Under the pieces are notes generated by a model. It was given only the letters and a program-made list of their open reading frames with translations, was not told the DNA's origin and ran no database searches. The translations under genes and the position numbers were made by a program. Of a stretch of DNA of 64,000 bases, positions 41,670-45,893 are shown piece after piece. The stretch covers positions 1 through 64,000 of the forward strand of contig JAEUHE010000136.1 of assembly GCA_016793885.1 (NCBI GenBank), in the 5' to 3' direction. The DNA is from Verrucomicrobiales bacterium. GTDB lineage: Bacteria; Verrucomicrobiota; Verrucomicrobiia; Limisphaerales; UBA11320. Position 1 is the first letter of the stretch. Every line of letters starts with the position of its first letter.

Positions 41670-42308
41670 TTACGGCTCCAAGGAGTCGGGCGTGCGGAAT
41701 TTGGTCTGGGTAGTAAACCGGGGGCCCTGAACCAATGTCAGGGTGCGAATGCTGAAGATCAGGATGCCGAGTTCCAGCAAGGCTGTGGAGGTATTCCAAA
41801 TCGTCGACCACAGGGGATACGTGCGTTCGGCGCGGGCTCGTTCCTCGGCGGATACCTTCTGACTCGTGCGGTTGTAGTAGGCGGGGGCCACCACCTTGTC
41901 CATCTGGTAATTGCCCAGGAGGGTGAGGGTCAGCAGCAGGCACAGAAGTCCTCCGTTAAACCGGGAGATTCCTCGGCCGAGATACACCCATTCCGCAACC
42001 AGATGCAGCAGGGCGACGCTGATGCAGAGGTAGCTCAGCGCGTAGAACCGCTGCCAGGCCATCAGACCTACGCCACCGGCGTAAAAATCTCCGATCAGCC
42101 ACTTGATGCCGGCGGAAGAAAAGAAAGGTCCCACCGCCAGAAGGTGGTAAAGCGAACCGCCAAGCCAGACTGCGGCATTCATCAAACCGACGACGCGCAG
42201 GAAAGAGATCACCGGAGGACAATAAGTGGCGTCGATTCCAGTGCCAAGCTTCGTTTGTGTGGGGTTGATCCTTTGCTTGAGAAGCCAGGTCGGCTTTCCT
42301 ATGGTCAA
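41670..42308 (-). CDS. Small integral membrane protein, four helices (DUF4149-like?)
   Basis: A 212-residue frame (TTG start; GTG at 42212 or ATG at 42182 are alternative starts). The core has four hydrophobic helices (about residues 33-62, 76-95, 98-135 and 170-190). MNAAVWLGGSLYHLLAVGPFF and the later WSTIWNTSTALLELG fit the DUF4149/TMEM205-like membrane proteins loosely; I am not sure of the family. It starts 33 bases from the divergent FecR-TPR gene. No function is proposed. Confidence 0.6.
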   Translation of the reverse strand: MTIGKPTWLLKQRINPTQTKLGTGIDATYCPPVISFLRVVGLMNAAVWLGGSLYHLLAVGPFFSSAGIKWLIGDFYAGGVGLMAWQRFYALSYLCISVALLHLVAEWVYLGRGISRFNGGLLCLLLTLTLLGNYQMDKVVAPAYYNRTSQKVSAEERARAERTYPLWSTIWNTSTALLELGILIFSIRTLTLVQGPRFTTQTKFRTPDSLEP

Positions 42309-42341: not shown

Positions 42342-45300
42342 ATGAGCCTTGTCCTGGTGGCGAGCCTTTGGCTCACCGGGGCGTGGCCCCGCTCCGTCTG
42401 GGCAGCGCCATCCGGCCCTGGCCCCGGAGCTGGATCTCCAACCAACGGGGTCGTGGTCTTATCCATCGAGGGCGAGAAGGCGCAGGTCGCGATTTCGCGC
42501 TCGGGCTCATCTTCCTGGGACCCGGCGTATGTGGGGCAGGTGCTCCAACCGGGCGATCGCGGACGCACAGGCCCGGACAGCCGTCTCTCGCTTCGTCTCT
42601 CGGACTTGAGCTTTCTCCGGATCAGTGAGCGCAGCGAGTTCACCATCAAGCAGCCACCTTCCTCGGACCAGACGTATGGAATGGCGCTCTGGAAAGGGCT
42701 TCTCTATCTGTTTCATCGCGACAAACCAGGCTCCACCCGAATCGATTCTCGCACCGCGTCGGCCGCCACCCGGGGAACGGAGTTCGTGGTGGCGGTGGAT
42801 GAGGCCAGCCAGCAAATGACCCTGACGGTCTTGGCCGGCGCAGGGGAGCTGACCAATGATCAGGGGTCGGTAGAGGTTCCGGCTGGAGAACGCGGAGGAG
42901 CTGCCTTGGGTGGCAAGCCTGAGCGACTTCCGCGCGTGGAGGCCAACAACGTGATTCAGTGGGTGTTGTATTATCCCGGCATCCTGGATGTTGGAGAACT
43001 CCCGCTGGCCCCTGAAGAGGCCCGCCTCCTGCAAGGCTCGTTGGAAGCGTATCGAAAGGGTGATCTTTCCGAAGCGTTCCGCGCTTATCCCAAGGGGGCG
43101 GCGCTGGCAAGCGAGGCCTCACGAGTGTATCGGGCGGCGCTCCATCTGTCCCTGGGCCAGGTGGACGCGGCCGAAGCCGCGCTCCGGGACATCGGCCGGG
43201 AGGGCGGCTCCAGCGTCGGAGCGGTTGAGTCGAAGCTGGCTGAGGCGCTGCGACGGGTGGTGGTGGCAGTTCGTAATCCGGCCAAGATCGAATCGCGCGG
43301 GGATGAGCAGTCGGAGTCGGCGACCGTCGCCATGGCGCTGTCGTATGAGCAGCAAGCTTTGCGCGACCTGCCCGCAGCGTTGAAAGCGGCGAGGAAAGCC
43401 GTCGAAAGGCGGCCGGAGTTCGGGTTCGGGTGGGCTCGCGTGGCGGAGTTGGAATTCGGGTTCGCCCGAGCTTCCGCGGCCAGGGAAGCCCTGGAACAGG
43501 CTTTGAGGTTGAGCCCTCAGAATGCTCAGGCGGTAGCGTTGAGCGGATTTGTGGCGATGGCCGAGTACCGTTGGAGTGCGGCGCGCGCGCAGTTCGAGCG
43601 GGCCATCTCCCTGGACGGCGGACTGGCCAACGCCTGGCTCGGGCGCGGATTGCTTCGAATTCAGGCGGGTGACGTGGCGGCGGGGCGTGAGGATCTACAG
43701 ATGGCGGCATCCCTGGAACCGCAGCGAGGAATTCTGCGGAGCTACCTGGCCAAGGCATGGCAGGAATCAAACGACCTGCCGCATGCGCGGGAGGAGCTGG
43801 CGTTGGCCAAGGCGCTGGATCCCCGGGACCCGACGGCGTGGCTGTATTCCGCGCTGTTGAATCAATCCCACCATCGCTTGAACGAGGCCGTCCGCGATTT
43901 GGAGCAGTCCCAGGTTCTGAACGACAACCGGGCTGTCTACCGTTCGGAGCTGCTCCTGGATCGGGACCGGGCGGTGCGGAGTGCCAACCTAGCGGCCCTC
44001 TACGCGGACACGGGGCTCTTCGACGTCGGTCTGGCGGAGGCATCGAGGGCCATTTCGAGCGATTACGCGGACTACTCCGCACATCTCTTTCTCGCCAACT
44101 CCTACAATCGCCTGCGGGATCCCCACCAGATCAACACGCGCTTGGAAAGCCCCTGGCTCAGCGAATATCTCATCGCTAACCTGCTCGCTCCAGCGGGCGC
44201 GGGAACGCTCTCTCAGACAGTTTCCGATCAGGAGTATTCCCGGTTCTTTGAGCGAGATGGCTTCGGCTTGGTGTCCAAAACGGATTATCTGAGTCGGGGC
44301 GATTGGCTGGAGAGCGCGGCGCATTATGGACGTTTCGCGCGAATGAGCTACGCGATTGAGACCAGCTACCGGTCCGAGCGGGGGCAAAGACCGAACGAGG
44401 ACTTTACCAGCCATTTGGTCGATGTGCAGTTCAAGCAGGACTTCTCTGCGCGGGACAGCCTCTACGTTCAGGCCCTCTATTATGACGCGGAGTCGGGGGA
44501 CCTTACCCCTTACTACAACCCGGCCCAATCCTTCAGCAAACTGCGGGTGCAGGAGAAGCAGGAGCCTATCGTGTTGGCGGGATATCGTCACGAATGGGCT
44601 CCGGGCGTTCAGACGCTATTTCTCGCGGGGCGGCTCCATGACCATCGCAGTTTCGATCTTCCCGATGCGCCCAGCTACGTGCTGCTGGAGAGCGGTCTGG
44701 GAACTCCGGTGGGCCTGCCGGTGGTCCTGGACCAGAGCTATCAGAGTCGAGCGGTGATCTACACCGCCGAGCTGCAGCAGATCGTTCAGAAAGCTGATCA
44801 CACCTATGTTTTCGGCGGGCGGGCTCAGTTGGGCGGATTCGATTCGGAGAACCGTTACTCCGGGTTGACCGCCGGCTCGGGTTTTCCGCAGCTGCCAGTG
44901 GAGCCATCGACGCGTTCGGATGCCGATTTCGAGCGCTTCAGCACCTACGTTTACGATCACTGGCAATGGAGTCCAAGGTGGTTGGCGGTGGCCGGACTGA
45001 CCTATGACCACATTCGATACCCTTTGAATCATCGATTCGCGCCGTTGGCGGCCGGCGAGCAGACTCAGGACCAGGTTTCGCCGAAGCTGGGCCTGATTTG
45101 GACGCCGCGCTCGGACACGACCCTGCGGGCTGCGTTTTCGCGATCGTTGGGTGGAGTGGCATTTGACCAGAGCTTTCAGTTGGAGCCGTCGCAAATCGTC
45201 GGCTTCAATCAAGTTTTTCGCAGTCTGATGCCTGAGTCGGTGGCGGATGCCAACAGCGCCTCGGAGTTTCAGATCGGTGCCTTGGCGATTGAACATCGGG

Positions 45301-45893
45301 TCAGCTCGAATACCTGGGTGGGACTGATTGGTGAGTGGCTCACCTCGGAGGTGGATCGCACCACGGGCGCGTGGAACTTTTTCGACGTCACCGCGAGCCC
45401 GCTGCCGTCCATGCGCGTTCGGGAGCACTTGAACTATGAGGAGCGATCCCTCACCGCCTACGCCTATCAGCTGCTAGGTCAGGAGTGGTCCTTGGGAGGG
45501 CGGTATCGGTTGAGCCATGCGGAGTTGGATCTCGCCCATCCGGATTTGCCTTCCACCGCGTTTCCGGTCCCTCCCTTCGGATCGCCGGCGACGTCTGCGC
45601 TCCTTCATCAGTTGCGCCTGTTTCTTCAGTTTCAGCATCCGGGAGGATTCTTCTCGTCGGTGGAGGCTCTCTGGCATCGGCAACAGAATTTCGATTACAC
45701 CCCAGACTTGCCCGGGGATCAGTTCTGGCAACTCAACGTCTATGCGGGGTATCGATGGCCTAACCGGCGGGCGGAGGTTCGGCTGGGGCTGCTGAATGTT
45801 ACCGGTCAGGACTATCGGTTGAACTCGTTGAACCTGACGGACACCCTTCCTCGCGAACGCACGCTGGCGCTCACCTTAAAGCTGAACTTCTGA
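42342..45893 (+). CDS. FecR domain - TPR repeats - outer-membrane beta-barrel fusion protein
   Basis: The frame is open 708 bases upstream, but the ATG at 42342 begins a proper signal peptide (MSLVLVASLWLTGAWPRSVWA) and the earlier part overlaps another gene. The 1183-residue product has a FecR-type domain (about 28-175; VGQVLQPGDRGRTGPDSRLSLRLSD, SRTASAATRGTEFVVAVDE), then helical TPR-like repeats (about 215-570; EALEQALRLSPQNAQAVALSGF), then a long beta-barrel resembling a TonB-dependent receptor (about 640-1183) ending in LALTLKLNF. No plug domain or TonB box was recognised. It is probably an outer-membrane protein with a large periplasmic part. Its partner and ligand are unknown. Confidence 0.78.
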   Translation: MSLVLVASLWLTGAWPRSVWAAPSGPGPGAGSPTNGVVVLSIEGEKAQVAISRSGSSSWDPAYVGQVLQPGDRGRTGPDSRLSLRLSDLSFLRISERSEFTIKQPPSSDQTYGMALWKGLLYLFHRDKPGSTRIDSRTASAATRGTEFVVAVDEASQQMTLTVLAGAGELTNDQGSVEVPAGERGGAALGGKPERLPRVEANNVIQWVLYYPGILDVGELPLAPEEARLLQGSLEAYRKGDLSEAFRAYPKGAALASEASRVYRAALHLSLGQVDAAEAALRDIGREGGSSVGAVESKLAEALRRVVVAVRNPAKIESRGDEQSESATVAMALSYEQQALRDLPAALKAARKAVERRPEFGFGWARVAELEFGFARASAAREALEQALRLSPQNAQAVALSGFVAMAEYRWSAARAQFERAISLDGGLANAWLGRGLLRIQAGDVAAGREDLQMAASLEPQRGILRSYLAKAWQESNDLPHAREELALAKALDPRDPTAWLYSALLNQSHHRLNEAVRDLEQSQVLNDNRAVYRSELLLDRDRAVRSANLAALYADTGLFDVGLAEASRAISSDYADYSAHLFLANSYNRLRDPHQINTRLESPWLSEYLIANLLAPAGAGTLSQTVSDQEYSRFFERDGFGLVSKTDYLSRGDWLESAAHYGRFARMSYAIETSYRSERGQRPNEDFTSHLVDVQFKQDFSARDSLYVQALYYDAESGDLTPYYNPAQSFSKLRVQEKQEPIVLAGYRHEWAPGVQTLFLAGRLHDHRSFDLPDAPSYVLLESGLGTPVGLPVVLDQSYQSRAVIYTAELQQIVQKADHTYVFGGRAQLGGFDSENRYSGLTAGSGFPQLPVEPSTRSDADFERFSTYVYDHWQWSPRWLAVAGLTYDHIRYPLNHRFAPLAAGEQTQDQVSPKLGLIWTPRSDTTLRAAFSRSLGGVAFDQSFQLEPSQIVGFNQVFRSLMPESVADANSASEFQIGALAIEHRVSSNTWVGLIGEWLTSEVDRTTGAWNFFDVTASPLPSMRVREHLNYEERSLTAYAYQLLGQEWSLGGRYRLSHAELDLAHPDLPSTAFPVPPFGSPATSALLHQLRLFLQFQHPGGFFSSVEALWHRQQNFDYTPDLPGDQFWQLNVYAGYRWPNRRAEVRLGLLNVTGQDYRLNSLNLTDTLPRERTLALTLKLNF

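Follow-up and report, generated by a model that had tools for sequence, protein, structure and literature searches.

The window (the whole stretch of 64,000 nucleotides that was analysed) contains a gene whose product is probably an NsrA-type signal receptor of the outer membrane, working via an enzyme with a CHASE2 sensor domain. NsrA of Sinorhizobium meliloti is an outer-membrane receptor needed for the activation of the CHASE2 cyclase CyaK, and of CyaD1 and CyaD2, by a plant protein signal (PMC7529298, PMC13001267); the NsrA–CyaK system serves the autoregulation of infection (PMC7529298, PMC13001267). The receptor role upstream of CHASE2 cyclases comes from these papers and for NsrA only, and we would extend it to the window protein by analogy. 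The features of the gene are as follows.

42342..45893, + strand: whole gene for the FecR-TPR-22-strand barrel protein (NsrA-like), 1183 amino acids (translation, Pfam, structure model)
42342..42407, + strand: signal peptide region, residues 1-22, a hydrophobic stretch ending in SVWA and followed by APS (predicted from the sequence)
42450..42929, + strand: FecR domain, residues 37-196 (Pfam core 74-167), predicted to be periplasmic (Pfam, structure model)
42942..44186, + strand: TPR superhelix, residues 201-615 (Pfam, structure model)
44259..45890, + strand: 22-stranded outer-membrane barrel without a plug, residues 640-1183 (Pfam, structure model, PDB matches)
45150..45263, + strand: extracellular loop L7, residues 937-974, between strands 13 and 14 (structure model, conservation)

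The open reading frame is free of stops over its 1183 codons; the start codon is uncertain, being either ATG at 42342 or TTG at 42273, the latter giving the more usual charged n-region of a signal peptide. Pfam recognizes FecR at residues 74-167 (40 bits, cut-off 24), TPR_19 and TPR_14 (matches over or near the cut-offs) and TonB_dep_Rec_b-barrel at residues 778-941 (49 bits, cut-off 27), and finds neither Plug (PF07715) nor STN anywhere in the protein. An earlier, sequence-only reading had placed FecR, TPRs and a barrel in one exported chain, and this is borne out by Pfam, by an AlphaFold2 model and by the fact that the domains share a single frame in this genome's four full-length paralogs as well as in dozens of further genomes. 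The gene is real and, because the frame is shared in this way, the product neither of chance nor of an assembly fusion. A chimaeric assembly joining three genes was rejected, given the identical domain order in many genomes.

The structure of the full chain, which the same reading had proposed to predict, was modelled with AlphaFold2 on a 62-sequence alignment (pLDDT 87.4, pTM 0.85). In the model, residues 37-196 adopt a FecR beta fold, residues 201-615 form a TPR superhelix and residues 640-1182 contain exactly 22 long strands; the barrel is present. This strand number is that of TonB-dependent receptors, and the PDB matches of the barrel are such receptors, including FecA, OprC, FhuA and BtuB (Z ~20; Foldseek, VIA-align). 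The N-terminal plug of these receptors is missing, as had been remarked from the sequence: there is no Plug or STN match, and in the model it is TPR helices that precede the barrel. Structure matches to the TPR proteins APC and Rap were set aside as general TPR resemblance. Phenylalanine is the usual C-terminal residue of outer-membrane proteins and is found at this position in 60 of the 62 aligned members. Conservation across the family alignment peaks in the TPRs (residues 325-615) and is lowest in the extracellular loops L4, L5, L8 and L9, the sidedness of loops being deduced from the alternation of long and short strand connections; conservation is strong in loops L7 and L11. This pattern, with an outer face that varies and a relay that stays constant, is what would be expected of a receptor. 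L7, the longest loop of the barrel model, may be a lid or lumen plug.

The nsrA gene lies on pSymB directly upstream of cyaK, which it overlaps, and encodes 1197 amino acids. By Pfam, NsrA has a FecR domain at residues 66-160 and then TPRs; its barrel, residues 600-1200 (PMC7529298), has no PF00593 match. The window protein has the same architecture, an exported chain running from FecR through TPRs to a C-terminal barrel. With BLASTP the two proteins align over FecR and TPRs (E=2e-20), and tblastn of the plasmid with the window protein shows similarity at the TPR level only. FecR and TPR are common domains, and part of the similarity to NsrA is generic. Profile–profile comparison of the two proteins reached 99.8% over residues 25-1143 and 25-1178, respectively. 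Against an alignment of six NsrA-like proteins from Rhizobiaceae and Methylocystis, the full-length window profile gave a probability of 100% (E=3.5e-40) and the barrels alone gave 97% (E=9.7e-11), with reversed and column-shuffled controls at or below 1.1%. The homology covers the whole chain, barrel included. In Methylocystis, a cyclase gene follows the NsrA-like gene. The sequence-only reading had depended on the domain order not being common with a known role; the order is in fact common in Limisphaerales-type Verrucomicrobiota, and a receptor role is known for NsrA (PMC7529298, PMC13001267), so that its interpretation survives in part.

The first clue to CHASE2 was that two of the three other paralogs in the window genome adjoin CHASE2 genes. 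A CHASE2 gene lies within the available flanks at 55 of 89 distinct loci, and at 30 of the 41 loci whose flanks reach 3 kb or more on each side; these loci were chosen via the receptor and their flank lengths vary, and a whole-genome test is less biased. In such a test of 20 of the member-carrying genomes of the order, 24 of 41 members (among the matches listed, with at least 41 members in all) lay within 10 kb of a CHASE2 gene, when 0.59 would be expected from gene density, and for 17 of the 41 the distance was within 2 kb. The earlier suggestion of a 'self-contained envelope sensor' can be kept as far as the envelope sensor, which is probable, but not as self-contained, given relatives linked to CHASE2 genes far above chance.

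It has also been suggested that the protein is a secretion pore or exporter-like barrel. The corresponding transport role, be it as a TonB-type uptake receptor or as an exporter built of TPRs and a barrel, as are PgaA and BcsC for exopolysaccharide, with FecR as an accessory, would suit a barrel of the TonB-dependent-receptor type, and polysaccharide export porins do carry TPRs and a barrel in one chain. Export porins of the PgaA/BcsC type, however, have 16 strands, as opposed to the 22 seen here, and a plug is missing from both the Pfam matches and the model, which argues against TonB coupling of the usual kind. CHASE2 signalling genes recur beside members, whereas synthase, transporter and other biosynthetic or secretion genes do not, and the homology to NsrA extends over the whole chain. 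That the barrel resembles TonB receptors also tells against a secretion pore or exporter, and we consider transport as a whole improbable.

The linked CHASE2 proteins carry Pkinase, Guanylate_cyc (class III nucleotide cyclase) or PAS-HisKA-HATPase-REC outputs; assigned by motif and by eye, they comprise approximately 18 kinases, 22 cyclases, seven histidine kinases and one TIR protein, the rest ending at contig ends. On a tree of 72 members (FastTree, local support), the cyclase label requires seven changes, compared with 16.9 after shuffling (0 of 500 shuffles being as low), and the kinase label seven compared with 16.2; receptor clades track the output class of the linked CHASE2 enzyme. The TIR protein (L124:7665-9341) is CHASE2 fused to TIR_2, an unusual kind of membrane sensor whose output is TIR, and is encoded directly upstream of a family member. 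Directly upstream of each of two receptor members that lack a CHASE2 neighbour lies a Ser/Thr-kinase-like gene (L032:4570-7179 and L033:4535-7039); the first product is Pkinase plus WD40 repeats, the second matches the kinase part alone of the CHASE2-protein profile, and the two are perhaps another output type.

Of the three receptor parts, FecR is the one whose divergence most closely follows that of CHASE2, and it may be the part that faces the enzyme. Among 48 linked receptor–CHASE2 pairs, the domain distances of FecR and CHASE2 correlate with r 0.80, or 0.65 as a partial correlation given TPR and barrel, a value reached by none of 500 within-class permutations; the partial correlations of TPR and barrel with CHASE2 are 0.07 and 0.18. 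Inside the kinases the FecR–CHASE2 correlation is 0.54 and inside the cyclases 0.44. This co-divergence agrees with, although it does not prove, a direct contact between FecR and CHASE2; co-divergence of linked genes can also stem from joint transfer or from unequal domain rates.

Other genes recur at some of the loci. Secreted Ig-type proteins are encoded near 26 of the 89 but are heterogeneous, and the idea of a universal conserved third gene was dropped on both counts. Some of them, beside the receptor gene, carry a repeated 'EPxHxGxxGGxSxW' domain that is unnamed in Pfam:

L008:14301-16034, Ig / 'EPxHxGxxGGxSxW' protein
L010:7006-9042, Ig / 'EPxHxGxxGGxSxW' protein
L026:1063-3129, Ig / 'EPxHxGxxGGxSxW' protein
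L030:11451-13214, Ig / 'EPxHxGxxGGxSxW' protein
L031:10664-12406, Ig / 'EPxHxGxxGGxSxW' protein

It is possible that these are extracellular partners of the receptor; the structure model of one Ig-type neighbour protein was poor (pLDDT 61). Between receptor and CHASE2-kinase genes, on the opposite strand, there are small exported proteins that form a family of their own, with no Pfam match in the one member checked:

L083:13689-14303, small exported protein
L084:13560-14054, small exported protein
L090:13565-14050, small exported protein
L099:13463-13894, small exported protein
L111:5097-5723, small exported protein
L106:13539-13970, small exported protein

In the kinase clade, an ECF sigma gene is found upstream of the receptor gene, on the opposite strand, at 12 loci (L083, L084, L090, L054, L106, L063, L102, L065, L068, L112, L092 and L115); it is directly divergent in nine and further upstream in three, and ECF sigma genes also occur near several members from the genus of the window genome. 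ECF factors activated by Ser/Thr kinases are known (PMC13147305, PMC8999054), and for this reason a path from receptor to CHASE2 kinase to ECF sigma factor is plausible in this clade. Alternatively, these sigma genes and the FecR domain itself might point to a FecA/FecR-like scheme, in which the receptor-fused FecR would regulate an ECF sigma factor in a more or less direct way. This is unlikely on several grounds. The FecR domain of the window protein starts approximately 15 residues past the signal peptide, on an outer-membrane protein, and the cytoplasmic anti-sigma part that, with one transmembrane helix, precedes FecR in the layout of a FecR anti-sigma factor is absent; the linked partner that spans the membrane is the CHASE2 enzyme; and it may instead be the kinase that acts on the sigma genes. 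Nor is there a Sigma70_r2 domain on the window's contig, in line with the earlier observation that no sigma factor gene lies nearby.

The window copy differs from many of its relatives in that its contig carries no CHASE2 gene, nor a second FecR gene; all five of the genome's CHASE2 genes lie on other contigs. This is a feature of genomic context and not a property of the protein, and the orthologues of the gene (L024 and L025) have no CHASE2 neighbour either. The neighbours are instead nadD, rsfS, an uncharacterized membrane protein gene on the opposite strand and a gene for a planctomycete-type cytochrome protein. The divergent gene just upstream (41670-42308, − strand) encodes a hydrophobic protein of 212 amino acids with no Pfam match. 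The clade that unites the window protein with its two orthologues is fully supported and lies within a supported clade of 24 rows, and because all linked members of the latter have kinases, the partner of the window copy is probably a CHASE2-Ser/Thr kinase encoded elsewhere. Which kinase this might be was approached by comparing distance profiles. The test pairs paralog C67 with the kinase C257 (0.81), and C257 is 60% identical to the kinase linked to the sister of C67; for the window protein it gave 0.28 for C257 and 0.21 for C92, and was unable to separate them. On 48 known pairs, the true partner ranked first in four and among the first three in 17, and naming the partner of the window protein by this ranking was rejected as too imprecise. 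By elimination, the C92 kinase (G000:C92, about 16.4-18.5 kb) is tentatively the best candidate; unlinked CHASE2-kinase orthologues of the C92 group are present in all five genomes of the genus. That the window copy is an orphan which has lost its signalling role although its family may signal (being a decoy, an adhesin or a relic) would fit the missing CHASE2 neighbours here and at the orthologues, but is very unlikely in view of intact orthologues (59-63% identical) in two other species of the genus and fragments (53-57% identical) in a third, of the unlinked kinases in the same genomes, and of NsrA, which likewise serves CyaD1/D2 as well as its neighbour CyaK (PMC7529298).

For a receptor of the NsrA type, we infer the following sequence of events. 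The barrel would display the variable loops L4, L5, L8 and L9 outside, and the conserved L7 may shut the lumen in the plug's stead. A ligand, possibly a protein as with NsrA, would bind the barrel loops and change the barrel; the change would pass along the TPR superhelix, which is rigid and highly conserved, to FecR in the periplasm. FecR would then touch the CHASE2 sensor domain of the inner-membrane enzyme and so switch its cytoplasmic output; the outputs seen in relatives are Ser/Thr kinases, nucleotide cyclases and hybrid histidine kinases.

Counting the window gene, its genome has four full-length family members, the remaining three being 42-48% identical to the window protein, and other genomes of its genus have two to seven matches each, some of them fragments. 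The family is present in 75 of 146 sampled genomes of the order and in 52 of 93 genera; among the matches listed for 287 genomes sampled elsewhere in the phylum, three are whole-chain. An alignment-based search of named genome contigs found 186 relatives, where a single-protein search with the window protein found none. Of the 186, 80 were retained, and nearly all of these come from Verrucomicrobiota, mostly Limisphaerales or 'subdivision 3', by the names with which the metagenome-assembled genomes are labelled (some say Akkermansia). A search of the open-access literature turned up no paper joining FecR, tetratricopeptide and Verrucomicrobia, although one may still exist. What is new is a large Verrucomicrobiota family with swapped outputs, of a kind already represented by one rhizobial system; NsrA, until now an oddity confined to rhizobia, becomes one branch of a receptor build that is widespread, and the Verrucomicrobiota, many of them known from metagenomes only, gain a candidate system for sensing at the cell surface. 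The signal sensed by CHASE2 domains has been described as unknown (PMC5192318). A concrete hypothesis is now available, with FecR as the partner, drawn from dozens of naturally linked receptor–enzyme pairs with three main output types, and these pairs together with the pointer to FecR make the question directly testable. As a tentative generalization, which could well prove wrong, CHASE2 domains in general might read the FecR domains of outer-membrane receptors and not small ligands; the family would carry signals from surface to cytoplasm without TonB or a plug, its outputs being exchangeable (cyclase, Ser/Thr kinase, histidine kinase, TIR), and the kinase clade would control the neighbouring ECF sigma factor by phosphorylation.

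Several known systems may be compared with this arrangement. The closest is NsrA–CyaK, which has the same order of FecR, TPR and barrel, a similar length (1197 as against 1183 amino acids) and homology over the whole chain; the Verrucomicrobiota family taken as a whole likewise has the CHASE2 enzyme gene directly downstream. The identity between NsrA and the window protein is ~21-24%, the partner in Verrucomicrobiota is in many cases a Ser/Thr kinase or hybrid histidine kinase rather than a cyclase, and the window copy, unlike NsrA, is without a linked CHASE2 gene. A cluster in Campylobacterota, compared by description only, shares the set of parts (a CHASE2 adenylate cyclase, a phosphodiesterase, a FecR-domain outer-membrane protein and a TPR protein) but has the TPR protein as a separate gene (PMC9239204). 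The BiofilmReg operon of Burkholderia (a response regulator, a LysM-FecR protein and a CHASE2 histidine kinase) shares the pairing of FecR with CHASE2; there, FecR is on a peptidoglycan-binding LysM protein without a barrel (PMC5192318). Finally, FecA–FecR–FecI has in common with the window protein a 22-strand receptor barrel and a FecR domain between outer membrane and cytoplasm, whereas the window protein has no plug or STN domain and no inner-membrane anti-sigma protein, and carries FecR inside the receptor chain itself.
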